A stretch of DNA of 64,000 nt from positions 17,952 to 81,951 of the forward strand of contig JAGWFW010000002.1 of the NCBI GenBank assembly GCA_028867735.1. The letters are read 5' to 3'. The notes beneath the pieces were generated by a model. The model made no database searches. It was not told where the DNA came from and worked only from the letters and a program-made list of their open reading frames with translations. Both the position numbers and the translations under genes were made by a program. Source of the stretch: Nitrososphaerota archaeon (GTDB lineage: Archaea > Thermoproteota > Nitrososphaeria > Nitrososphaerales > Nitrosopumilaceae). Each line of letters begins with the position of its first letter. Within the stretch, counting starts at the first letter, position 1. Positions 2,574-63,571 of the stretch are shown piece by piece.

Positions 2574-3254
2574 GTGAGGGTTGCGGTAATCGTTTTTCCT
2601 GGGAGCAATTGCGATCGAGACATGCACCATGTCTTGACAGACGTGTTCAAGCTGCAATCGCAGCTTGTATGGCACGCTGATGACCTACCAAAGAACGTTG
2701 ATGCCATTGTGCTGCCTGGGGGGTTTTCCTATGGCGATAGACTGAGGGCAGGTGTCATTGCAGCTCACAGTCCGATTATTGCACAGGTAAAAAAGATGGC
2801 AGAGAAAGGAATGCCAATACTTGGTGTCTGCAACGGCTTTCAGATATTGACCGAGGCAGGCCTTTTGCCTGGAGCGCTTTTGAAGAACACCTCGCTCAGT
2901 TACATCTGCAGGTGGACTGAAATCATTGTAAAGAACAACAAGACGCCGTTTACAAACAAATTCAAGCTAAACCAGAGGATACCGATTGCAATTGCAAACG
3001 GCGAGGGGAGGTATTATGCAGACAAGGAAACACTGCACATGCTAAAGAAAAACAACCAAATCGTCTTCACCTATGGAGAGGACGTCAACGGAGCAACAAT
3101 GAAGATTGCAAGCATATGCAACAAAGAAGGAAACGTTGTAGGCATGATGCCGCATCCTGAAAGATCTGCTGAACAAATTCTCAATCCGAAAGATGCCAAA
3201 CCGGCATCCATGATCTTCGAGTCTCTGATAAAGACTCTGGGTGTCACTGCATGA
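2574..3254 (+). CDS. purQ: Phosphoribosylformylglycinamidine synthase subunit PurQ (glutaminase)
   Basis: This is the class I glutamine amidotransferase subunit of FGAM synthase; it releases ammonia from glutamine for PurL. The N-terminus MRVAVIVFPGSNCDRD is typical. The nucleophile is the Cys in GVCNGFQIL, and the catalytic His/Glu are in MMPHPERSAEQ near the C-terminus, so the triad is complete. The 226-residue length is normal. The start codon is GTG. The gene overlaps purL by four bases (ATGA), indicating translational coupling. Confidence 0.93.
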   Translation: MRVAVIVFPGSNCDRDMHHVLTDVFKLQSQLVWHADDLPKNVDAIVLPGGFSYGDRLRAGVIAAHSPIIAQVKKMAEKGMPILGVCNGFQILTEAGLLPGALLKNTSLSYICRWTEIIVKNNKTPFTNKFKLNQRIPIAIANGEGRYYADKETLHMLKKNNQIVFTYGEDVNGATMKIASICNKEGNVVGMMPHPERSAEQILNPKDAKPASMIFESLIKTLGVTA

Positions 3255-5413
3255 GCCTAACTCCGCAGGAATCTGCTTATCTTGAAAAAAAAATAGGAAG
3301 AAAGCCAAATCCTGTGGAACTACAAATAGTCGCAGCCGAATGGTCGGAGCACTGCTCCTACAAGTCATCAAAGAAGCATCTCAAAACCCTTCCACGAAAG
3401 GGAAGAAGGGTCATCTCAGGTCCTGGATATGATTCAGGGGTGCTAGATGTTGGCGACGGATATGTTGTCACTGTACACATTGAGAGCCACAACCACCCAT
3501 CTGCAGTAGAGCCATACGGCGGGGCTGCAACTGGAGTGGGCGGGGTTATACGAGACATCCTGTCTGCTGGTACAAGACCGATTGCAATTTTGGATGGCCT
3601 CAGGTTTGGCGATATTGAAAAAGATACCCATGCAAGATGGCTATTCAAAAATGCCGTGCGAGGAATTGCCGATTATGGCAACTGCCTTGGAATTCCAACA
3701 ATTGGAGGCGAAATAGAGTTTGACCGATGCTTTACAAATTATGCATTGGTAGATGTCGCCTCCGTAGGATTTGGAAAAAAAGAGAGGCTCATACAAAACA
3801 GGGCAGACAGAGGAGATTATGTAGTGTTGATTGGAGGCTCAACTGGAAGGGACGGAATAGGGGGTTCGCAGTTTGCATCTGACAAACTAGAATCTGAGAA
3901 CCGCTCTGCAGTGCAAATTCCAGACCCGTTCATTGAAAAGCTGGTAATAGAGGCAATCCTAGAGGCCAGAAACCAGAAATGCATCAAGGCAATGAAAGAT
4001 CTCGGGGGAGGCGGACTGTCATGCGCAGTCTCGGAAACATCAGATGCGCTGTCAGTTGGCATTGAGCTTGACGTTGCTCTGGTACACAAAAGAGAGCAGA
4101 ACATGTCGCCTACCGAACTCATGGTATCTGAATCACAAGAAAGAATGCTTGTGATAACATCTCCTGAAAAACTGCAGACATTAAAAGAGATTTGTGAAAA
4201 GTTGCGCGTATCGTATTCTATTGTAGGAAGGGTGACCGAAGGCAATACGATGCAGATAAAATATGACAAAGATACTGTGGCAAAACTGCCAAGCGACGTG
4301 GTTGTAAATGCGCCACTTCTTGACAGGCCTGCAAGCGTGCCAAAATATCTGGCAAGGATCTCATCCATTAAAAAACCAAAAGCTCCAAACCTGTCGCAAA
4401 CATTATTGAGAATGCTTTCAAACCCAAACATTGCAAGCAAGCACTGGGTGTACACCCAATATGATCATGAAGTGGGAATTCGAACAGTAATCAAGCCTGG
4501 ACAAGACGCCTCTGTTTTAAGGCTTGATAATGGAAAATTCCTATCGGTAAAGATAGACGGCAACTCAAAGCATTGTTATGTAAACCCAAGACAGGGAGTT
4601 ATTGGATGCTTTGATGAGGCATGCAGAAACATAGTGTGCACTGGGGCCACGCCTATCGGGATGGTAGACCATCTACAGTTTGGAAATCCAGAAGACCCTG
4701 AAATCTTCTGGACGTTCAAAGAGTCAGTTGAAGGCATAACCGAGTATGCCAAGTATTTTGAGATTCCATGTGTGGGGGGGAAAGTGAGCCTGTACAACGA
4801 GACTGATGATGGACCAATCAAGCCGACCCCGCTCATAGGCGTACTGGGTCTAATTGAGGGCAAGCCACTGATTCCAAAGAAAGCAAAAAAAGGCGACCTG
4901 CTTGTAATGGTGGGGCTTACAAAGGACGAGCTTGGCGGTTCTGAATATTATGAATACGTACATGATGTGGTGGGCGGGGCATGCCCTGCGGTTGATATGG
5001 TTTCTTCAAGATCAAACCAAGAGGCAGTACTGGAAATAATAGGCCAAGGCATGACCAAGGCCGTGCATGACTGCTCAAAGGGCGGGCTTGGCGTGGCAAT
5101 ATCTGAACTTTGCATAACGCATGAAATAGGGTGCATGGTGTCACTTGACAAGGTGCCATCTGAGCAACTCGCGGAAGACGAACTGCTCTTTTCAGAATCT
5201 CATTCCAGATTCCTGTTAATTGTAGAGCCTTCAAAGATAAAGGCAGTAAGGGCATTGCTTGAAAAGCATAAAGTCAAGCATGATGCCATAGGCAAGTTTT
5301 CAGGAAAAAACATCGCGTTTAAGAACAAGTCAAAGGTGGTTGCAAGTGTAATGGTTGATAAAGCACAAGAAAAATGGTTAAACTCGTTGGGGTCATTGGT
5401 TAGTCATGGTTAA
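3251..5413 (+). CDS. purL: Phosphoribosylformylglycinamidine synthase subunit PurL
   Basis: The ATP-dependent synthase subunit that, with PurQ and PurS, forms FGAM. At 720 residues it is the short PurL form used with separate PurQ and PurS. It shows the conserved EWSEHCSYKSSKKHL segment, VTVHIESHNHPSAVEPYGGAATG, and the nucleotide-site motif GGSTGRDGIGGSQFAS. The second half repeats the fold (GLTKDELGGSEYYEY; VHDCSKGGLGVAISE). It overlaps purQ by 4 bases and purF by 8, so purQLF is a tight operon. Confidence 0.95.
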   Translation: MSLTPQESAYLEKKIGRKPNPVELQIVAAEWSEHCSYKSSKKHLKTLPRKGRRVISGPGYDSGVLDVGDGYVVTVHIESHNHPSAVEPYGGAATGVGGVIRDILSAGTRPIAILDGLRFGDIEKDTHARWLFKNAVRGIADYGNCLGIPTIGGEIEFDRCFTNYALVDVASVGFGKKERLIQNRADRGDYVVLIGGSTGRDGIGGSQFASDKLESENRSAVQIPDPFIEKLVIEAILEARNQKCIKAMKDLGGGGLSCAVSETSDALSVGIELDVALVHKREQNMSPTELMVSESQERMLVITSPEKLQTLKEICEKLRVSYSIVGRVTEGNTMQIKYDKDTVAKLPSDVVVNAPLLDRPASVPKYLARISSIKKPKAPNLSQTLLRMLSNPNIASKHWVYTQYDHEVGIRTVIKPGQDASVLRLDNGKFLSVKIDGNSKHCYVNPRQGVIGCFDEACRNIVCTGATPIGMVDHLQFGNPEDPEIFWTFKESVEGITEYAKYFEIPCVGGKVSLYNETDDGPIKPTPLIGVLGLIEGKPLIPKKAKKGDLLVMVGLTKDELGGSEYYEYVHDVVGGACPAVDMVSSRSNQEAVLEIIGQGMTKAVHDCSKGGLGVAISELCITHEIGCMVSLDKVPSEQLAEDELLFSESHSRFLLIVEPSKIKAVRALLEKHKVKHDAIGKFSGKNIAFKNKSKVVASVMVDKAQEKWLNSLGSLVSHG

Positions 5414-51271: not shown

Positions 51272-52549
51272 ATGATACGAATAGAGGCAGAAGTTCCTAG
51301 AAATGATCTGATGGGCGTAAGCGACGCACTCAGGATAATTGATGTATCCATTAACGTATCAAAAGTTAAGGGCAGGGGAAAAGGTGTTGGCTCGAAAGTT
51401 CATGCTGCAAAAGGCACAGAGATGTATCGCTCAGAGTTTCAGGACAAGTATGTAGTGCAGGTGACCGTCCCAGATAACATTGAAAATGACGTGGTCGAGA
51501 TAATAAAATCAAACTCAAAAACAGGCAAGATTACTATATTCCCAGTATCACGCGTGATAGACATTGGCTCGGGGGTGGAAAATGAGCAGGCACTTGCCCT
51601 CAACGAATACGACGGCGTCATACTGACAGCTGCCAAGAACCAGAACACGTCTTTCCCGTTTGGCTTTGCTACGGAAAACATGAAAGTTGCCCTTCCACAA
51701 ATTGAAGGAGAAAAGGGATACTATGACATGTTTGAGAAGAAATTTGTCCCGTTAAATGTGCTCGAATCTGTAATCTATCATGTCAAACCTATTGAAAGAT
51801 TTCAGATTCTCTCTGCAGATGATGCAGTAGTAATAGAGAGCATGACCCGGGTAAAGAGAAACTTTTCACTGTATAAAATGAAAATGTCTGATTCGTATTC
51901 ACAGGCCTTTCTAAAATACGTTGCAAGCAGGTTTCTCAGCCTGTGGCCAGAGCAGGAAATCAACGTCGTAATCCTATATGTGGATATAGTGGGCTCTACA
52001 AAACTTGCAACCCTTCTCAGCTCAGAGGAACTCTCAGGTCTTATCAAGGTATTTTCAGAGGAAATGTCTGTCATAGTGTCAAAACATGCAGGATTTGTGT
52101 TAAAATATGCAGGAGACGCGGTGATTGCATTTTTTCCAGAGCTCAAAGAATTTGGAAACATGGCGGAAAACGCAGTGAGATGCGCAAACTCGATGAATAT
52201 GCTGATAAAATATTCCATCAATCCAATCTTTGCAAGCCTTGGCCTGCCGACCATCAGTGTGAGAATAGGTATTGATGCAGGAAAAAACAGGATAGTCTTT
52301 CTCGGCTCAGATCCAGACCTGATCGGACACAGTATTACAATCGTATCCAAAATACTGCCGCTTGCTCAACCCAATCAAACAACAATCGGTGATGCGGCAT
52401 ACGGATTGCTCTCTTCTGGATTTGCGGAGCAGTTTACAAAAATCAATCCGGACGATAAAAGATGGAATTACACTCATCCTGGAACTGGAGTGGTCTATCC
52501 AATCTATTTTTCAAGATATCTGGTGCAAATATCGGATCTCAAGGCCTAG
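51272..52549 (+). CDS. PII-like domain fused to a class III nucleotidyl cyclase domain
   Basis: Residues 1-110 align with PII/GlnB: VSKVKGRGKGVGSKVHAAKG (T-loop side), YRSEFQDKYVVQVTVPDNIE, TGKITIFPVSRVIDIGSG (B- and C-loop region). A linker of ~115 residues follows. Residues ~228-390 are a class III cyclase homology domain with both metal Asp: VILYVDIVGSTKLATLL and VLKYAGDAVIAFFPEL, then SVRIGIDAGKNRIVFLGS. The usual transition-state N and R (VNxAxRL) are replaced (SITIVSKIL), so activity may be altered or lost. PII binds ATP/ADP and 2-oxoglutarate and suggests control by nitrogen or energy state. Confidence 0.78.
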   Translation: MIRIEAEVPRNDLMGVSDALRIIDVSINVSKVKGRGKGVGSKVHAAKGTEMYRSEFQDKYVVQVTVPDNIENDVVEIIKSNSKTGKITIFPVSRVIDIGSGVENEQALALNEYDGVILTAAKNQNTSFPFGFATENMKVALPQIEGEKGYYDMFEKKFVPLNVLESVIYHVKPIERFQILSADDAVVIESMTRVKRNFSLYKMKMSDSYSQAFLKYVASRFLSLWPEQEINVVILYVDIVGSTKLATLLSSEELSGLIKVFSEEMSVIVSKHAGFVLKYAGDAVIAFFPELKEFGNMAENAVRCANSMNMLIKYSINPIFASLGLPTISVRIGIDAGKNRIVFLGSDPDLIGHSITIVSKILPLAQPNQTTIGDAAYGLLSSGFAEQFTKINPDDKRWNYTHPGTGVVYPIYFSRYLVQISDLKA

Positions 52550-53432: not shown

Positions 53433-54854
53433 TCACGTGTTGCAAAACCAATTGTTTTGAGCACCACCATTATACAACGACTGTATTGCATTAACATCGC
53501 ATTCTGATATGTACGGATGATTTGTTTGAACCGTATCTTGCACCATGTTCTGGGGCCCGTTAGAGTTCGAAAGACCCAAGGCATGACCAAATTCATGCAC
53601 TGTTATTGCCGTAAGCTGACTGTCTGAAAGCTTGTCCGCACCATAAATGGTAATAAAAGACTTTAAGATCTGCGAATTGCCAACAATCAACTTGGTATAT
53701 GCAGAGTAGCCATCGGGATCTTTGCCATTAGACAAAAATATTACAATCTGGCCTGAGTTGTCAGAAGAGTCTGCTATATTGAACTGGTTTGGCACGTAAA
53801 ACTCTGTGTTATTTATTGTATCCAAAGCTCCCTTCCAACCCTTGAAGTACTCTGATTTCTTGTCTGATGTAATTCCATCAAGGAAGGAACTGCCAGTGTA
53901 CAATACGTCTGTTGAGAGAATGGCTTTTTTGATATTGTTGATTTTTTCCTGACTTAGATTGGATAGATTTACTATGTTAACAGTCAACGGCGTTCCTTTG
54001 GCAACATTCCAATGCTGAGTGGCACTTGTCTGTCCTTGCAGATCCTCTATTGAATATTTTGTCTTGATGCCGAGGGTGCCAATCTGATCTGGTTGATAGT
54101 AATTGTCAATAGCATAGAAAAACAAGATTGCAAGTACTGCCAGTGCAATCAGTTCTACTTTCAGCGTGACCCCTGCATTAATTTTTTGTACTACTTTTTT
54201 TATTGTTGTGCTACCATGAGGTACTGCACCTTCCATCCTAATCCTATTGTCGGCTTTTCCACACTGTACGTAATCAAGCAGTTGACCAGAGTTTGTTTTA
54301 CTAGGCTCTGATGATTGGAATTGCCCTGCTATTTCGTCAGGTTCTTTTGCACGTGTTAACAGTTGTGTTCTGGACTGTTCAGCAGATCCGTTTTTATTTG
54401 ATGGCTGCCGGTTTGCCGACATTTCACAGTCAGTGCCTGTTTTCGTAAATGTTACCCTCTCTTTGCGTACAGAGGCATGTCCCTCAATTTGAGAAATCAA
54501 TGCTTTTAGTGCAAATGGTTTGTTCATGACCTCGACTTTTTCTTTGAGGTCACTCAGTTTTTTTATAACATCTGTTCCGTATCCGGTAACGAAGATTATT
54601 CTCTGTTTTGGATCGAGTCTCTGGATCTCTCTGGCAACATCTATGCCATCCATTCCGGGCATTTTTTGATCTAGTATTATTACATCTAAAGGTGGTTCTG
54701 ATACATTGTTATTCTTTAGGTAATCAAAATAAGTTTGTAGACACTCATCACCGCTTCTTGCTGTCGTAACCGCGTATCCAATATTTTCAAGTGCGTTCTT
54801 GTATGTCTCAGTCAAATCTTGGTTATCTTCTGCTATGAGTATTCTTTTGGCCAT
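53433..54854 (-). CDS. Response-regulator receiver domain fused via TM helix to a metzincin protease
   Basis: From ATG 54854 (MAKRILIAEDNQ). Receiver domain ~1-125 with all key residues: acidic pair in AEDNQD, phospho-Asp in VIILDQKMPGMDG, Thr in IIFVTGYG, Lys in VMNKPF. Then ~100 polar residues, one helix (VELIALAVLAILFFYAI), and an extracellular zinc protease domain with HEFGHALGLSN (HExxHxxG). The expected third His of matrixins is not at the usual position (Ser/Asn there). The track's 12 extra N-terminal residues are unlikely. Confidence 0.82.
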   Translation of the reverse strand: MAKRILIAEDNQDLTETYKNALENIGYAVTTARSGDECLQTYFDYLKNNNVSEPPLDVIILDQKMPGMDGIDVAREIQRLDPKQRIIFVTGYGTDVIKKLSDLKEKVEVMNKPFALKALISQIEGHASVRKERVTFTKTGTDCEMSANRQPSNKNGSAEQSRTQLLTRAKEPDEIAGQFQSSEPSKTNSGQLLDYVQCGKADNRIRMEGAVPHGSTTIKKVVQKINAGVTLKVELIALAVLAILFFYAIDNYYQPDQIGTLGIKTKYSIEDLQGQTSATQHWNVAKGTPLTVNIVNLSNLSQEKINNIKKAILSTDVLYTGSSFLDGITSDKKSEYFKGWKGALDTINNTEFYVPNQFNIADSSDNSGQIVIFLSNGKDPDGYSAYTKLIVGNSQILKSFITIYGADKLSDSQLTAITVHEFGHALGLSNSNGPQNMVQDTVQTNHPYISECDVNAIQSLYNGGAQNNWFCNT

Positions 54855-55080
54855 CCTAACCCATCTGGTTTGAACATGTGATATTTCCATATAGTGTCTT
54901 GTCTGTTTAGAACAAACGCATTGTACAGAATTGCAGACTATATCTTGTCATCTATTGCGTAGATTTTTCACAGGCATTATGATGTTCTCTGTACCTGAGG
55001 GCATGTTTGAAAACGTGTGATGGTCAACAGTGGGAAAACATGGGCGAGAATAAATTTTGACGATAGGCTGGACTTTAGGC

Positions 55081-56967: not shown

Positions 56968-57385
56968 ATGTACGACATAGGCAAGGTGTCAAAGAAAGGC
57001 TGTACTGCCATAGTGGTGGACGACGATGAGGATACAGTCAATCTTTTCGCAGAATTTTTGGAAATCTGCGATGTCCGCGTGCTTGGGAAGGCCTTTGATG
57101 GAAATCAGGGCGTCGAGATGTATAAAAAGATCCTTCCAGACATGGTATTTTCAGACGTCATGATGCCCGGATATGACGGGTTTTACTTGTTGCAAAAAAA
57201 TACGCCAAACCAACCCATATACCATAATGGTAATGATCACAGGCGATGTAAGATCGGAAACAATAGACAAGCTGGAGGAACTGAAAGCAGACGCCATAAT
57301 ATACAAGCCGTTTGACATGAAGCAGGTTGTACAAGCAATAAACAGCCTGCTTGAAAGATCTACCTGCCAGACACAGCTCAGATGA
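56968..57385 (+). pseudogene. CheY-like response regulator interrupted at an A7 run
   Basis: Frame one gives TAIVVDDDEDTVNLFAEFLE and MVFSDVMMPGYDGFYLLQK, then loses the frame at caaaaaaat (57194-57200). The continuation lies in the +1 frame: RQTNPYTIMVMITGDVRSET, ADAIIYKPFDMKQVVQAINS. Removing one A restores a complete single-domain receiver with Asp pair, phospho-Asp, Thr and Lys all present. It is a recent inactivation, slippage control, or a sequence error. It lies beside the archaellum operon, on the opposite strand. Confidence 0.8.
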
Positions 57386-57427: not shown

Positions 57428-58933
57428 TTAGAATAATTTCAAAAAGAGTATCATGTTAGTACCGGTGTTAGATAGATCCAGTACGTGCTTTTCTAGGAAG
57501 GTTGCCAGTGCCATAGTTGTTCCATACATTGCCACACCGCCTAGCGCAGTAAGCATGGCTATGTTGAACCATACCGTTTTGAAAAGCCCGCCCTGTCCAA
57601 CCTTGATTGCCAAACCGTTGATGGCAGACGTAATTATTATGACAAACGGCATCATCATTGCCATAAAATTAGGATCGATAGGACTCAGTGTTATGGCGTT
57701 GTTTGAGATTTGGGTTCCGGTAATCATGGTATGAAATATCTCGATCAGCTTGTTCATCAAACCAAATATTGCCATGGTGAGGGCGTGGAGCACTAGAACG
57801 ATTGTCTCAAACGTCCTAGATGTCTGCCTCCTTTTTGCCCTGAGCTCATTTATTTTCAATGATATCTCAGAAACTTTGTTGCCCACATCATTCATGTTTG
57901 ATCCCTTTTGCATGGCGCTTGCCATTATTGTATTTCCTGACGTTATGATTGCAGTGCCAGCTTCTCTTGAAAATAACTCAAACCCGATATCTGGCTTGAT
58001 TCTGTTCTTTATGCGGTTTTTAAAGGCAATTATCTGCTTCTGAAGGGGGCCAAAGTTGCTTCTCAAAACGGCATCAAGTGTCTGCCCCATTGATCCTACC
58101 ATCATGTATATCTCTCCAAAATGTCTGATAAACGACGGATACCACTCGTCAAGTGCTTGCAGGTCTGTTTCCATTTTCTTGGCATAGTATCCGGGAATGA
58201 ACAGTGGGGCAGTGGCAATGACGGCTACCAAAGGCAGCGGAATAATATTTGCGATGGATAGAACGATGCCCATGGAAGCTCCTATGCCGATTGACATGTA
58301 AAGAAGCATCTTAAATTTCTGAGCCTTCTCGTAGTCTCCTACAGATATCCTGTCCCTTGGAAATATCATGTACATGATAACAATAAATGAACCCATGCTT
58401 ACAATCACGCCAATAAATGAGACCATAAACACAAACTGGGAATTAGCACCACCCATGAGCATGGTCATGATGGAATTTCCAGATATCATAAAGACTGCCG
58501 TCGACGAAATTGTATAAAACATTTCGAGAAAGAGTTTCTGTGTCTCTAAATTGCGTTCGTATCTTATTGTAAAATTGTGTATGGTGGCAGACATTTCGTC
58601 TGTAAAGAATATTCGCAATTCATCACCCAGTCGGATGACCTGAGCTAGTTTTACTAGGAGTTGTTTCATGGGATCCGAGTTGTCTGAAAACTTTACTGCA
58701 ATCATTTCACATGACTTTGCAAGGCCATATCCCCATCCGACTCCCAGTCTGAAAACATCCTTGAACGTGTTGGAGTATTTCCCGTATCCTGAAGATTGCG
58801 CAGTTTTTATCAGATCGACCGAACCTACCTCTCCAGTAGAGAGTGCATAAAGAAACGCCATAAAGTAAACAAACTCATCGTCAGCCTTCTTAATCGACGC
58901 AAGTTTTTCTTTCAGAGTTGTTTTTTGTTTCAT
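57428..58933 (-). CDS. arlJ: Archaellum assembly membrane platform ArlJ (FlaJ)
   Basis: A 501-residue membrane protein with two T2SS-F-like domains and several helix groups (MLLYMSIGIGASMGIVLSIANIIPLPLVAVIATAPLF). Conserved soluble parts: GVGWGYGLAKSCEMIAVKFSDNSDP and the motif region FIRHFGEIYMMVGSMGQTL. It anchors the ArlI ATPase. It overlaps arlI by 4 bases. Confidence 0.9.
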   Translation of the reverse strand: MKQKTTLKEKLASIKKADDEFVYFMAFLYALSTGEVGSVDLIKTAQSSGYGKYSNTFKDVFRLGVGWGYGLAKSCEMIAVKFSDNSDPMKQLLVKLAQVIRLGDELRIFFTDEMSATIHNFTIRYERNLETQKLFLEMFYTISSTAVFMISGNSIMTMLMGGANSQFVFMVSFIGVIVSMGSFIVIMYMIFPRDRISVGDYEKAQKFKMLLYMSIGIGASMGIVLSIANIIPLPLVAVIATAPLFIPGYYAKKMETDLQALDEWYPSFIRHFGEIYMMVGSMGQTLDAVLRSNFGPLQKQIIAFKNRIKNRIKPDIGFELFSREAGTAIITSGNTIMASAMQKGSNMNDVGNKVSEISLKINELRAKRRQTSRTFETIVLVLHALTMAIFGLMNKLIEIFHTMITGTQISNNAITLSPIDPNFMAMMMPFVIIITSAINGLAIKVGQGGLFKTVWFNIAMLTALGGVAMYGTTMALATFLEKHVLDLSNTGTNMILFLKLF

Positions 58934-60600
58934 AGCATGTTAAGCTCCTTCATGAAGGCATCCAAGCCGATTTCTCTGCAGCGCGATATCGAATCGTAAA
59001 CATCATAGAAATTGAAGATCTTTTTTTCCACCATCTTATCCAGGATTTTGGCCCTCATTGCAAGCTCTTCATATAAGAGTGGCTCGTCTTTTCTTGACAT
59101 GCCTCTTTTTTCAAGCACTCTGGAAATGAACAAGGCGCTGCTTCCCTTTCCTCTAAACTTTACCTCATCCCTGCCTGGATCCCAGTCAAAAACCGGGATG
59201 AACATTACGTTATTTCCTTCCGGGTTGTATCCCAGAACCTCATTGATTGACAGTACTCTCCTCACCCTCTTTCCATCCGCGCCAGTGACTGATGCCTGAA
59301 ACAATGCAATGTTTAGGTTTTCCACATTGGTCTTTGGTATGTTCATCGGAGGATTGGTAATTCTCTGTATCAGTGCAGTCATGTTGGCTGCGTGAAAAGT
59401 ACTTACAACCGGGTGGCCTGTCTGCATTGCTTGAAATGCAATGTTGGCTTCCGCCCCCCTGATTTCTCCAACAAATATGTAATTTGGCCTCTGCCTTAAC
59501 GCTGCTTTCAGCAGATCAAACATGGTAACACTTGAATTCTGGTTTCCTGTATCGCGTGTGGCCTCGCTAATCCAGTTGGCGTGCGGCAGGGTGAGCTCAG
59601 GCGTGTCTTCAATGCTTACTATCTTCCAGTTGGAAGGAATGAATGCAGTTAACGCCATCATGGTAGTCGTTTTTCCAGACGCAGTCTCACCATTGATGAA
59701 GACGCTCATGCCCTCTGACATCATTATCCACAGGTAAGCCGCCTCTGTCGAGTTGAGAGTCTTGCTTGGGAGTATCTGGGTTATGGAAAGGGGTGTACTT
59801 GCAAATCTTCGGATTGTGGCATTTGTTCCTTTTCTGCTTACGTCCTTGCCAAACACGATGTTAATCCTGGAACCTTCTGGCAGCGTGGCGTCTATCACGG
59901 GTTTTGCATGGGATACCGTTTTTCCAAACTGCTCCGACATGCTAATTATGAGTTCATCTATCTCTTCAACGCTGAGGAATATGGGGCACTTGAGAGCTCC
60001 GAACATTTTGTGGATCACGTACATGTTTCCAGCACCTACCACTGAAATGTCCTCAAGATGCGGGTCTGTCAAGAACGGGTCGAGCAGTCCCATGCCGGCT
60101 CTTTTTCTTAAAAAATGATACTTTAGGTTGGCTACATCCTTCTCGTAAACCGGAAGGCTCTTCATCTTTGTCGCATCAATTTTGGAATAGTCTACAGGAC
60201 CGTTGTTGACTGACATGGTTTTGTCCAGATACTGGTCTATCATGTTGAATCGTTCTGTAAGCTCGACTGGAGGATTCATGCTTCCGGCGTGCAGTGCAAA
60301 TAGCTTGTCAGCATGCTCCATTAGCACCCTGTCCGGCTCATCTGGCTCTATTATTGAGTATTCCACATACCCGTCGGCAGAGTTTGAGTGCGGGTTGACA
60401 TGTATGTACGCAGTGTCGGATATCGGGTAGATCAGGTTGGGCTCTTTGAGCTTCTTGTGCTCGCCTTCTAGTTTTTCAGTGTAGATTGGAATTGGGTTTC
60501 CTCTTACAACATACATTTCCAGATAGTTGGACAGGTGTGGGGACTTTTTCAGGGCATCTGCAAACTTTTTGTCTTTTACCAGCGATATGTCAAAGCCCAC
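58930..60600 (-). CDS. arlI: Archaellum motor/assembly ATPase ArlI (FlaI)
   Basis: A 556-residue ATPase powering both assembly and rotation of the archaellum. Walker A is INGETASGKTTTMMALTAF, Asp box WKIVSIEDTPELTLPHANW, Walker B NYIFVGEIRGAEANIAFQAM, His box GHPVVSTFHAAN. The N-terminal part has YHFLRKRAGMGLLDPFLTDPHLEDISV. The start is GTG 60600. Confidence 0.94.
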   Translation of the reverse strand: MGFDISLVKDKKFADALKKSPHLSNYLEMYVVRGNPIPIYTEKLEGEHKKLKEPNLIYPISDTAYIHVNPHSNSADGYVEYSIIEPDEPDRVLMEHADKLFALHAGSMNPPVELTERFNMIDQYLDKTMSVNNGPVDYSKIDATKMKSLPVYEKDVANLKYHFLRKRAGMGLLDPFLTDPHLEDISVVGAGNMYVIHKMFGALKCPIFLSVEEIDELIISMSEQFGKTVSHAKPVIDATLPEGSRINIVFGKDVSRKGTNATIRRFASTPLSITQILPSKTLNSTEAAYLWIMMSEGMSVFINGETASGKTTTMMALTAFIPSNWKIVSIEDTPELTLPHANWISEATRDTGNQNSSVTMFDLLKAALRQRPNYIFVGEIRGAEANIAFQAMQTGHPVVSTFHAANMTALIQRITNPPMNIPKTNVENLNIALFQASVTGADGKRVRRVLSINEVLGYNPEGNNVMFIPVFDWDPGRDEVKFRGKGSSALFISRVLEKRGMSRKDEPLLYEELAMRAKILDKMVEKKIFNFYDVYDSISRCREIGLDAFMKELNML

Positions 60601-60640
60601 GACAAACTGCCTCCTGTTTTTTATGTGTCATCCTGATCTC

Positions 60641-61342
60641 CTATGCATTTGCCGTTGATATCGGCACAATCTTTATTCCAAAACTGGTGTCCACCTCAAA
60701 TGCAAAAGACGGCTCTGCCTGCGACGTGGAACCTATCAGTTTTATTACCTTCATGATCTTGACTGCCTTGCCTCCTATGCTGGACGTACTGAGAGAAAAA
60801 TAGGCGTCGCATGCAGATTTGATTCTCAGTGCAACATCTTCCGGAATTGACGCTTCATGCATTGTGAGTATTATGGACATGCCAGTTGATACCAGATACT
60901 TGCATCTTGTAAGAAAATCAAGAATCTGGTCTGCGTCAGAATACATTGTCAGAAGAGATACGGAGTCTATTACTACGACATCACATTTCTTTGCATTGCT
61001 GCTGATGTATCTGCCAATCACAGGTAGCAGGAAAGACGACTGCCGCTCTGACCACATTGCGCCGTACACATGCAGCGGCAGTATTGAGAGCTTGTTTTGC
61101 AAAAACGGCTTGGTAAAATTGAAGGTGATTGTCTTCATTTTTTCAATATAGTCTTTTACAGTATTTTCAGTAATGCATAGAACTTTCATATTCAAGCTTA
61201 GCATTCCCTTGATGAATTGTGCGGCAAGGGCGCTTTTTCCTGCTCCGTGCTCGCCCTCTATTAGCATAAGACAGGGAGTAGGTATGCCACCTGCAAGCTG
61301 TCTGTCGACCTCTTCATTGCCGGTTGGTACCGTCTTTATCAT
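60641..61342 (-). CDS. arlH: Archaellum ATP-binding protein ArlH (FlaH)
   Basis: A 233-residue KaiC/RecA-like protein: Walker A IEGEHGAGKSALAAQFIKGML and Walker B KCDVVVIDSVSLLTMYSD. ArlH binds ATP and docks on ArlI as part of the motor ring. It overlaps arlF by 4 bases. Confidence 0.93.
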   Translation of the reverse strand: MIKTVPTGNEEVDRQLAGGIPTPCLMLIEGEHGAGKSALAAQFIKGMLSLNMKVLCITENTVKDYIEKMKTITFNFTKPFLQNKLSILPLHVYGAMWSERQSSFLLPVIGRYISSNAKKCDVVVIDSVSLLTMYSDADQILDFLTRCKYLVSTGMSIILTMHEASIPEDVALRIKSACDAYFSLSTSSIGGKAVKIMKVIKLIGSTSQAEPSFAFEVDTSFGIKIVPISTANA

Positions 61343-61908
61343 GTTATTTTCACCGAACTTGAGGTCGTAATGCCGTTATCAGTTCCAAATTCCACTGTAA
61401 ATGTACCGCCGCCATAGGTAGGATGGGACGGTTGTGCGTTTATTGCGGCAATCTCGCTTGGATCAATCATCCCAGGATGTATGTAGTCATTTTGAATCTG
61501 TGAGATGCACCAATGACCAGCAGCCAGTCCAGAACAAGTGTTTGCGTAATTTAGGGTTTCAGTCAGAATCGGATTGTTTGTAGCATTTTCTTGATATGTT
61601 ATAATCACATCAAATTTATTGTAATTCCACAATGCCACGTTTCCCGTGTTGGTGATTTTGAAAGTGGCCGGGCCTGTGCCCCTGTTGTCCTGCAAGCTTG
61701 AAATGCTGATATTTGTCTGCAGCCTCAAAAACAGGTTGTTTGACATCTGAGACTGGGACGTGCTTATCTTTGTAGCATCATCGACCACTGTAGAAAAAGA
61801 CATCATGGCATAGATTATGGAAAAAGTCACAATACCGCCAGAAATAGCAATACTTAATCCCATTCCGCCTCCTCCTTTGTTAACAGAATCTTGTGAATTG
61901 CTGATCAC
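61339..61908 (-). CDS. arlF: Archaellum stator-like protein ArlF (FlaF)
   Basis: A 189-residue protein with an N-terminal membrane helix (MGLSIAISGGIVTFSIIYAMM) and an extracellular beta domain (ATFKITNTGNVALWNYNKFDVIITYQ). Its place between arlG and arlH and the domain plan match ArlF, which binds the S-layer and acts as a stator. It overlaps arlG by 29 bases. Confidence 0.8.
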   Translation of the reverse strand: MISNSQDSVNKGGGGMGLSIAISGGIVTFSIIYAMMSFSTVVDDATKISTSQSQMSNNLFLRLQTNISISSLQDNRGTGPATFKITNTGNVALWNYNKFDVIITYQENATNNPILTETLNYANTCSGLAAGHWCISQIQNDYIHPGMIDPSEIAAINAQPSHPTYGGGTFTVEFGTDNGITTSSSVKIT

Positions 61909-62353
61909 TTACTCCGTTTGGGGTGGTCACTTGTAGATCATAGGTAGAACCGCACTGGATGGTGGCCAGATTTGAAATGTTTATCTGTACTGTATTTGTC
62001 TGATTCCATACAGACAGCGGGCTTGAAAACTTCCATGATAGGCCGGATGGTGGATTGCTGTACTGTATTCTCTGCATTTGGTTAACTTGGCCAAAATACA
62101 CGTCGGTATTCTGGGGATTCGTAATTGGGTACGAGCCGACATTTTTTACCCATGCGCTGACACTAGTCTGCGTCGCATTTGTGATATAGATTACTTTGAT
62201 ACTTGTCAGAACTGTTTGTTTCTGACTCTCTGTAGTCTGCGTAAAGGTTGATTGGAACGAACCCACCTTTGTCATCACTACACCTGCAAGTCCGGCAGCC
62301 ACTATTACTGAAGCTACTATCAGAATGGCCTCCGTGAACACTGCAGATGCCAT
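61880..62353 (-). CDS. arlG: Archaellum stator-like protein ArlG (FlaG)
   Basis: A 157-residue protein with an N-terminal helix (FTEAILIVASVIVAAGLAGVVM) and a beta-sandwich (SIKVIYITNATQTSVSAWVKNVGSYPI). That pattern is typical of ArlG, which forms filaments capped by ArlF in the pseudoperiplasm. The ATG directly follows the upstream stop. Confidence 0.82.
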   Translation of the reverse strand: MASAVFTEAILIVASVIVAAGLAGVVMTKVGSFQSTFTQTTESQKQTVLTSIKVIYITNATQTSVSAWVKNVGSYPITNPQNTDVYFGQVNQMQRIQYSNPPSGLSWKFSSPLSVWNQTNTVQINISNLATIQCGSTYDLQVTTPNGVSDQQFTRFC

Positions 62354-63571
62354 TTATTCAGCCTTCTTTTCCACCGTCATTATGTTATCATGATTTTTAC
62401 CCTGATTCATCATTAATTTAGCATAAATCAAATCTGATTCTCTATCATTCATGCCCATTACTTTGCCAAACTTGTATAACATGATCAGTGTGTCGTTAAC
62501 AGACAAACCCGACTTGTCCATCATGTTAATTACATTGTAGACAATATGCTCATCTTCTTGGTTTAGCCCCATGAGTTTACACTGATCAATTAATACGTCG
62601 ATAGAGTCTCTTCCTAATGTTTGCAGGATTTCTTCCATCAACGATATGGTTGTCATTAACTTGCCCAATGTGATCTTTCCACCTAGTATTTGCTTAAACG
62701 CCAGCACCTCGTGGGAATCGCTTGCTAGTATATCGCCGGCATCACTGTCTTTCACAATCCTGTCTGGTGTGTTTTCTCTGTTCCTAGTCATGCTGTCCTG
62801 TGTCTCAATTTTGAAGTCAGATTCGGTTTTTTCGGAATTTGTACCCTGTGTCGGATCTGATAGTGGCAGCTGTTCTATGTGCAGGGGAAGGGTTGGATCA
62901 GACAATGATTTGATGTCAATCGAATCAAAATACTTTCGCATAAAATTTAACGGATTTGCAAGCTCGGCTTGAAATGATTTAAGATCAGTCAGGGATGATT
63001 CAACTGTTGATGACATAGAATCCATGTTACTTTTGATTATGTCTATCTCATTTCTCAGGTTGATTATGGTATCTTGCAGTCTGGCATTGTCCTTTTGTAC
63101 AGGCTCCATGACTCTTGAAACCATGTCCTGAACGACAGCCTCGTCGACAATCGGCGTCTGGATTGCGGCAGAACTGGCATCTCCGCCATACCCTGCCATG
63201 AGGTTTTGAATTGTGTCTTGGGACTCTCCTGTGGTATTATTACCATCTGGCAAAATCATGCCTTGTTCTTTCATGGGTTCAATAGAAACTGCCTCGACTG
63301 GTGGCTGATACGTTTGTTCTGATAATCCGGCACTGGCCTGTGATCCTGCTTGGACATTCCTTGATAACATTTTAGGCAGAATCACAAGTACGATAACAAT
63401 TACAATCGACGGCAGGACAAAATAGAACAGAGCGTATGTCGGAATGAAAAGATATTCCGGGAGCAGCTCGTACAAAAACAGGCCGTAGCAGGCTATTGTG
63501 CTTGCTGCCACGAAAGTCCGAGTGTTTCCGGCCATCTTTGCAAGTAAAAAAAGTGGATTGGTAGTGATCAT
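62354..63571 (-). CDS. Membrane coiled-coil archaellum-operon protein (ArlX/ArlCDE-like position)
   Basis: A 405-residue protein. Two N-terminal helices (TFVAASTIACYGLFLYELL; FYFVLPSIVIVIVLVILPKML), a polar linker, a coiled coil (ARLQDTIINLRNEIDIIKSNMDSMSSTVESSL), and a helical C-terminal domain of ~120 residues (LAFKQILGGKITLGKLMTTISLMEEIL ... YNVINMMDKSGLSVNDTLIMLYKF). It sits between arlB and arlG, where Euryarchaeota have arlC/D/E and Crenarchaeota have the membrane ring protein ArlX. I infer an ArlX-like scaffold. Confidence 0.6.
   Translation of the reverse strand: MITTNPLFLLAKMAGNTRTFVAASTIACYGLFLYELLPEYLFIPTYALFYFVLPSIVIVIVLVILPKMLSRNVQAGSQASAGLSEQTYQPPVEAVSIEPMKEQGMILPDGNNTTGESQDTIQNLMAGYGGDASSAAIQTPIVDEAVVQDMVSRVMEPVQKDNARLQDTIINLRNEIDIIKSNMDSMSSTVESSLTDLKSFQAELANPLNFMRKYFDSIDIKSLSDPTLPLHIEQLPLSDPTQGTNSEKTESDFKIETQDSMTRNRENTPDRIVKDSDAGDILASDSHEVLAFKQILGGKITLGKLMTTISLMEEILQTLGRDSIDVLIDQCKLMGLNQEDEHIVYNVINMMDKSGLSVNDTLIMLYKFGKVMGMNDRESDLIYAKLMMNQGKNHDNIMTVEKKAE

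Follow-up and report, generated by a model that had tools for sequence, protein, structure and literature searches.

A receiver domain joined through a membrane helix to a matrixin-fold domain with a degenerate zinc site in a Nitrosopumilaceae archaeon

The archaeal two-component census describes lineage-specific outputs and fusions of receiver (REC) domains to enzymes, e.g. REC-BcsA and KaiC-REC, and lineage-restricted fusions of this sort are typical (PMC5847659). The same work reports many stand-alone regulators in nitrifiers, mostly without assigned function, and the words 'protease' and 'peptidase' are absent from its main text. In a 2025 survey of MMP genes (PMC12587646) the Nitrosopumilales come up solely as a sparsely sampled group, and the terms 'histidine kinase' and 'response regulator' do not occur. 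The window analysed here, a stretch of 64,000 nucleotides from a Nitrosopumilaceae archaeon, carries on its minus strand (53433..54854) a gene that brings the two subjects together: a receiver, a single transmembrane (TM) helix and a matrixin-fold domain with a degenerate zinc site (REC-TM-pseudomatrixin). The control of outside proteolysis from within that the original prediction read from this layout was not known to it as a described system, and no description of a matrixin/two-component pairing in thaumarchaea was found in the literature searched, subscription papers lying mostly outside its reach. With the single-domain CheY-like regulators of Thaumarchaeota (PMC5847659) the window protein shares a receiver with all phosphotransfer residues, but its receiver is membrane-tethered, joined to a predicted extracellular domain and deprived of the stand-alone tail. 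REC-BcsA and KaiC-REC (PMC5847659) are likewise lineage-restricted combinations of a receiver with an enzyme fold, whereas the output fold of the window protein has a degenerate active site and is predicted to lie beyond the membrane, which one helix crosses. Response regulators nearly always work within the cell; the fused partner in this case is predicted to be outside the membrane.

The fusion gene and its product

The reading frame reaches an upstream ATG at 54890 (53433-54890, minus strand) and comprises 485 codons without a break; M13 (54854), from which the protein counts 473 aa, is the likelier start, the sister fusion at locus L031 beginning at the matching place. Residues 17-135 (54486..54842, minus strand) match the receiver profile PF00072 with 66.5 bits against a cut-off of 30.2 and contain the acidic pair E21/D22, the phospho-acceptor D74, T102 and K124, i.e. 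the complete receiver that had been claimed for this gene; the alignment places equivalents of all these residues in the sister fusion. A cytoplasmic linker of ~95-100 residues (54165..54473, minus strand), delimited by the full-length model and the alignment, leads to the membrane helix at residues 243-261 (54108..54164, minus strand; hydropathy 2.37), which is also helical in the full-length model and has a basic flank before it and none after it. These features agree with the single N-in/C-out helix originally proposed, and the topology is predicted to place the receiver inside the cell and the matrixin outside. In the full-length model receiver and ectodomain are ordered, and linker residues 128-224 (473-aa numbering) have pLDDT values below 50 except for residue 184; a disordered tether of ~95 residues would make a poor rigid transmitter or lever between the two domains. 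In alignment the window linker matches the N-terminal coiled coil of the stand-alone TM-matrixin, from just ahead of its start Met to the membrane helix, suggesting that nearly the whole parent matrixin, cytoplasmic coiled-coil region included, was kept in the fusion.

The extracellular domain (residues 265-485; 53436..54098, minus strand) was delimited by Pfam, alignment and structure modelling. Its residues 421-473 match PF00413 (Matrixin, M10A) with 34.8 bits against a cut-off of 24, and the AlphaFold2 model of the ectodomain, built with 22 relatives, has the fold of a matrixin catalytic domain (pLDDT 84, pTM 0.85). Foldseek against the PDB returned MMP catalytic domains in 50 of the 50 matches listed, with E-values down to 1.7e-6 and, among those listed, TM-scores up to 0.70 when normalised by target length. 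Both Pfam and Foldseek thus point to M10, and identity as an archaemetzincin or an M57 peptidase, which the original prediction had also considered, had no support. The ectodomain starts right after the TM helix, with no propeptide carrying a cysteine switch. Its only cysteines, C464 and C483, both lie near the C-terminus, and the invariance of this pair across a 14-sequence alignment is consistent with an extracellular disulfide. With a single-pass N-in/C-out helix ahead of the matrixin domain and a receiver fused to it, the window protein falls among the TM-matrixins that have a two-component element fused or adjoining.

Origin of the fusion and fate of the zinc site

The same fusion occurs in a second species (G113, locus L031) at the same syntenic purE/purK site. 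In both fusion genomes the gene lies between purE and a gene for a 187-aa membrane protein, with purK beyond, and at the empty site purE and the 187-aa gene are ~100-130 bp apart in at least 17 relatives; the common insertion site is accounted for by a single event in an ancestor of both. As the frame is open and the sister fusion syntenic, an assembly join or a frameshift was rejected as the source of the gene. A widespread fusion was also rejected, its presence being limited to 2 of 37 genus genomes.

The receiver can be traced to an operon elsewhere. The gene order in G067 (L033) and other relatives is RR_B - HK_A - RR_A, followed by a TPR gene, a propeller gene and RR_C; the first three are on one strand, RR_A is 13 bp from HK_A, a two-TM histidine kinase with HisKA and HATPase domains, and RR_C converges on a TM-matrixin gene. 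The RR_A gene is present at this HK/TPR position in L033 and others; at L043 of the window genome, where the HK_A kinase core spans 2678-4147, and at L032 of G113, HK_A is directly followed by the TPR gene, and RR_A is missing between them. Both fused receivers fall inside the RR_A clade of the receiver tree (15 rows, 97/94), where they branch side by side, but their sister grouping has no resolution. Within the genus, the relatives of RR_A are stand-alone regulators ending in a short conserved tail, the one lost in the fusion. G008 has a tandem duplication of RR_A (L042:5524-6595), both copies having the conserved tail FKxWDGxxGTSVPVGPSR. In the matrixin tree the two fusions form one clade (100/100) nested in a clade of 20 genus TM-matrixins (100/99). 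By sequence, then, RR_A was joined in the common ancestor of the two species to the duplicate of a single-pass TM-matrixin, and the original operon RR_A is gone; a second RR_A copy elsewhere in the window genome is conceivable, the assembly being 85% complete.

The zinc motif of the window protein, read from alignment columns, is HEFGHALGLSN (H432, E433, H436, G439, N442; 53565..53597, minus strand). The column of the third zinc ligand has His in 93 of 106 relatives and Asn (N442) in the window protein, which departs in this way from HExxHxxGxxH, as had been noticed before; in addition, the Met-turn column, with Met in 102 of the 106, has Val (V450; 53541-53543, minus strand). The column-by-column comparison with these relatives found the catalytic Glu retained throughout. 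The sister fusion reads HEFGRALGLGN, its second His being replaced by Arg and the third by Asn, with the Met-turn Met kept. Of the HExxHxxG protease domain first proposed, the matrixin fold therefore stands, in Pfam and in the model, but the zinc site is degenerate. Loss of the zinc ligand and the Met-turn residue disfavours an active matrixin; Asn as third ligand might weakly hold zinc, and some residual peptidase activity of the window protein is possible.

Such losses recur in the clade that holds the fusions. The 14 zinc-degenerate relatives, tallied by alignment column, comprise 9 of the 20 members of the genus TM-matrixin clade versus 5 of 86 elsewhere (Fisher p=6e-5), and our reading of the tree suggests that zinc ligands were lost on at least five separate branches. 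The stand-alone paralogue of the window genome (L043:8250-9293) has an intact site, HEFGHALGLPH, and the one in the sister genome has also lost a zinc ligand (HEFGN). Between the window genome (G000) and G113 the fused receiver has a dN/dS of 0.21 and the fused ectodomain one of 0.18, with a range of 0.16-0.21 over both at dS ~1; the stand-alone ectodomain has 0.11 and PurE 0.05. Both fused domains are thus still under purifying selection. Since the fold is kept under selection while the catalytic site is not, the window ectodomain looks like a maintained pseudoprotease rather than a pseudogene.

Other genes of the window deserve mention in their own right. The gene at 51272-52549 (plus strand), conserved beside purE across the genus, joins a P-II-like domain to a class III nucleotide cyclase domain. 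An apparently frameshifted receiver gene lies at 56968-57343 (plus strand), its matches split over two frames, and has an open version of 146 aa in the sister genome (L031:5342-5782). The genes at 57428-63571 (minus strand) probably form an operon for an archaellum or a type IV pilus-like structure; the part searched, 57428-58933, has a weak, sub-cut-off T2SSF match.

Possible roles of the fusion

We give about an even chance to the reading in which a response regulator has become tethered to the membrane and carries a matrixin ectodomain that is catalytically dead and binds at the surface, its receiver still being served by HK_A. HK_A is put forward as the cognate kinase because of the RR_A-HK operon arrangement in relatives, and on that operon history it would still phosphorylate the receiver at D74, now held at the membrane; in the window genome HK_A lies on a different contig from the fusion. 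The ectodomain would no longer cut and would bind or dock on a surface partner, with the cell envelope and the parental matrixin's own ligand or substrate as candidates. Phosphorylation would in turn alter the binding partners of the receiver, presumably membrane-proximal ones, and in this way HK_A would be coupled to the surface without proteolysis.

In the original prediction phosphorylation inside the cell was to control proteolysis outside. Layout, topology and a link to phosphorelay signalling are supported; control of proteolysis has little support for this protein, the zinc site being broken in both fusions and the linker predicted to be disordered. A surface protease still active with Asn as third ligand, toggled across the single helix by receiver phosphorylation, could call upon the HExxH and general-base Glu kept in the window protein, the matrixin fold, a fitting topology and close stand-alone paralogues that are intact, but we consider it decidedly unlikely in view of the missing third ligand and Met-turn Met, the missing second and third ligands of the sister protein, the recurrence of zinc-site loss in the clade and a linker unsuited to act as a rigid lever. 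The intact paralogue of the same genome (C55), 57.5% identical over the TM and ectodomain, would allow a different arrangement: the fusion could pair or compete with this active TM-matrixin as a regulatory pseudoenzyme, receiver phosphorylation steering the protease in trans. Purifying selection on an ectodomain with a dead site fits such a role, for which iRhom2 offers a precedent (PMC12516561); yet the stand-alone paralogue of the sister genome lacks a zinc ligand itself, and the fusion is absent from some relatives whose stand-alone copy is degenerate, leaving this arrangement unlikely though conceivable.

Repeated catalytic loss with the fold kept would also suit an outside-in sensor, in which the tethered receiver and its kinase change in phosphorylation or interactions upon ligand occupancy or clustering of the matrixin-fold ectodomain, and TM-matrixins do share operons with dCache and CHASE3 kinases, one locus (L104) even having dCache and matrixin in one protein. 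However, the operon kinases already own sensor domains, and receivers normally receive signals rather than originate them, which makes a sensor of this kind rather unlikely to our mind. The fusion might, lastly, be a chance combination without specific function that is heading for decay, as its decaying catalytic residues, its long branch and its occurrence in so few genomes could indicate; the low dN/dS over receiver and ectodomain, the open frame in both species, the full set of phosphotransfer residues and the loss of the original RR_A speak against it, and we deem it very improbable.

Matrixins and two-component genes across the family

The window fusion is a rare, derived member of a common TM-matrixin/two-component partnership. 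Exactly one TM segment was predicted in 87 of 99 relatives, and the positive-inside rule is obeyed in 93 of 98. In a sample weighted to the genus and to the best-scoring matches, a receiver gene lies within 200 bp of the TM-matrixin in 62 of the 92 cases with flanks, versus 16 of 90 for other long ORFs (p=7e-12), a background that is inflated because the control ORFs were drawn from the same loci; genomes of the genus have on average ~12 receivers, so adjacency by chance is expected in one or two per cent. The adjoining receivers fall in several distant clades of the receiver tree, and the adjoining kinases, among those examined, have two TM segments and mostly dCache or CHASE3 sensor domains. 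About ten TM-matrixins have a lone DHp (HisKA) domain, with the ATPase domain lacking, fused in the order DHp-coiled coil-TM-matrixin (L020, L049, L050, L053, L054, L090, L092, L097, L113 and L115), and a receiver gene usually overlaps or abuts these genes upstream. Among 20 matrixins from other families of the order the zinc motif is intact in all 20 and none has a receiver gene within 600 bp, the nearest being ~1.9 kb away. A 605-aa protein at L104:1766-3583 combines a dCache_1 sensor domain with a matrixin domain.

A further observation concerns junctions between RR and TM-matrixin genes in L019/L038, L039, L040, L048/L051 and L052, and in L041, L062 and L067. There the receiver stop (TAA, TAG or TGA) is followed by the TM-matrixin frame in the same phase, with no ATG, GTG or TTG ahead of the conserved coiled coil, L048 being an exception with TTG at codon 2. 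One option is non-AUG starts, with CTG at codon 2 and a GGAGG-like sequence 6 nt upstream, or GTA/GTC in the L041 group; the other is read-through of the stop, by which some species might make a REC-TM-matrixin protein from two abutting in-frame genes.

It is tempting to speculate, with less assurance than for the fusion itself, that ammonia-oxidising archaea of this family have a two-component system with a third, membrane-spanning part. This would be a single-pass matrixin with a phosphorelay domain (a coiled coil, a lone DHp or a whole receiver) docked at or built into its cytoplasmic end. Through it the state of the phosphorelay would be tied to proteolysis at the surface or, in members with a decayed zinc site, to binding there, perhaps with REC-TM-matrixin made by read-through in some species. 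Phosphorelay control of surface proteolysis stays plausible in this wider family, whose members have mostly intact HExxHxxGxxH motifs and receiver genes alongside.

Compared with M10A matrixins and membrane-type MMPs (PF00413), the window protein shares the matrixin fold, HExxHxxG and a membrane-anchored location predicted at the surface, but it has lost the third zinc His and the Met-turn Met, is without the cysteine-switch propeptide, and differs from the membrane-type enzymes in its type II orientation and in a cytoplasmic receiver replacing the short tail. PorX is a cytoplasmic protein with an alkaline-phosphatase-like domain. This REC-PglZ regulator of the type IX secretion system, whose model touches the window receiver, resembles the fusion as a response regulator with a hydrolase-fold output tied to surface processes, from which it is set apart by having neither a membrane helix nor a matrixin. 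The iRhom2-ADAM17 pair (PMC12516561) is a works-like analogy, in which the cytoplasmic domain of a pseudoprotease carries the signal controlling an active surface metzincin; folds and chemistry are different, the window protein using an Asp receiver, and there is no homology. Together with the pairing of surface matrixins with histidine kinases and regulators across the family, a receiver whose fused partner lies beyond the membrane would give two-component signalling in archaea, here abundant nitrifiers, a new route for output (or input), and the fusion would be a clean natural example of how a protease becomes a pseudoprotease while joining a signalling protein. It would extend a known kind, the response regulators with lineage-specific output domains, and the more novel part would be the matrixin-phosphorelay link that is widespread in the family and apparently undescribed.
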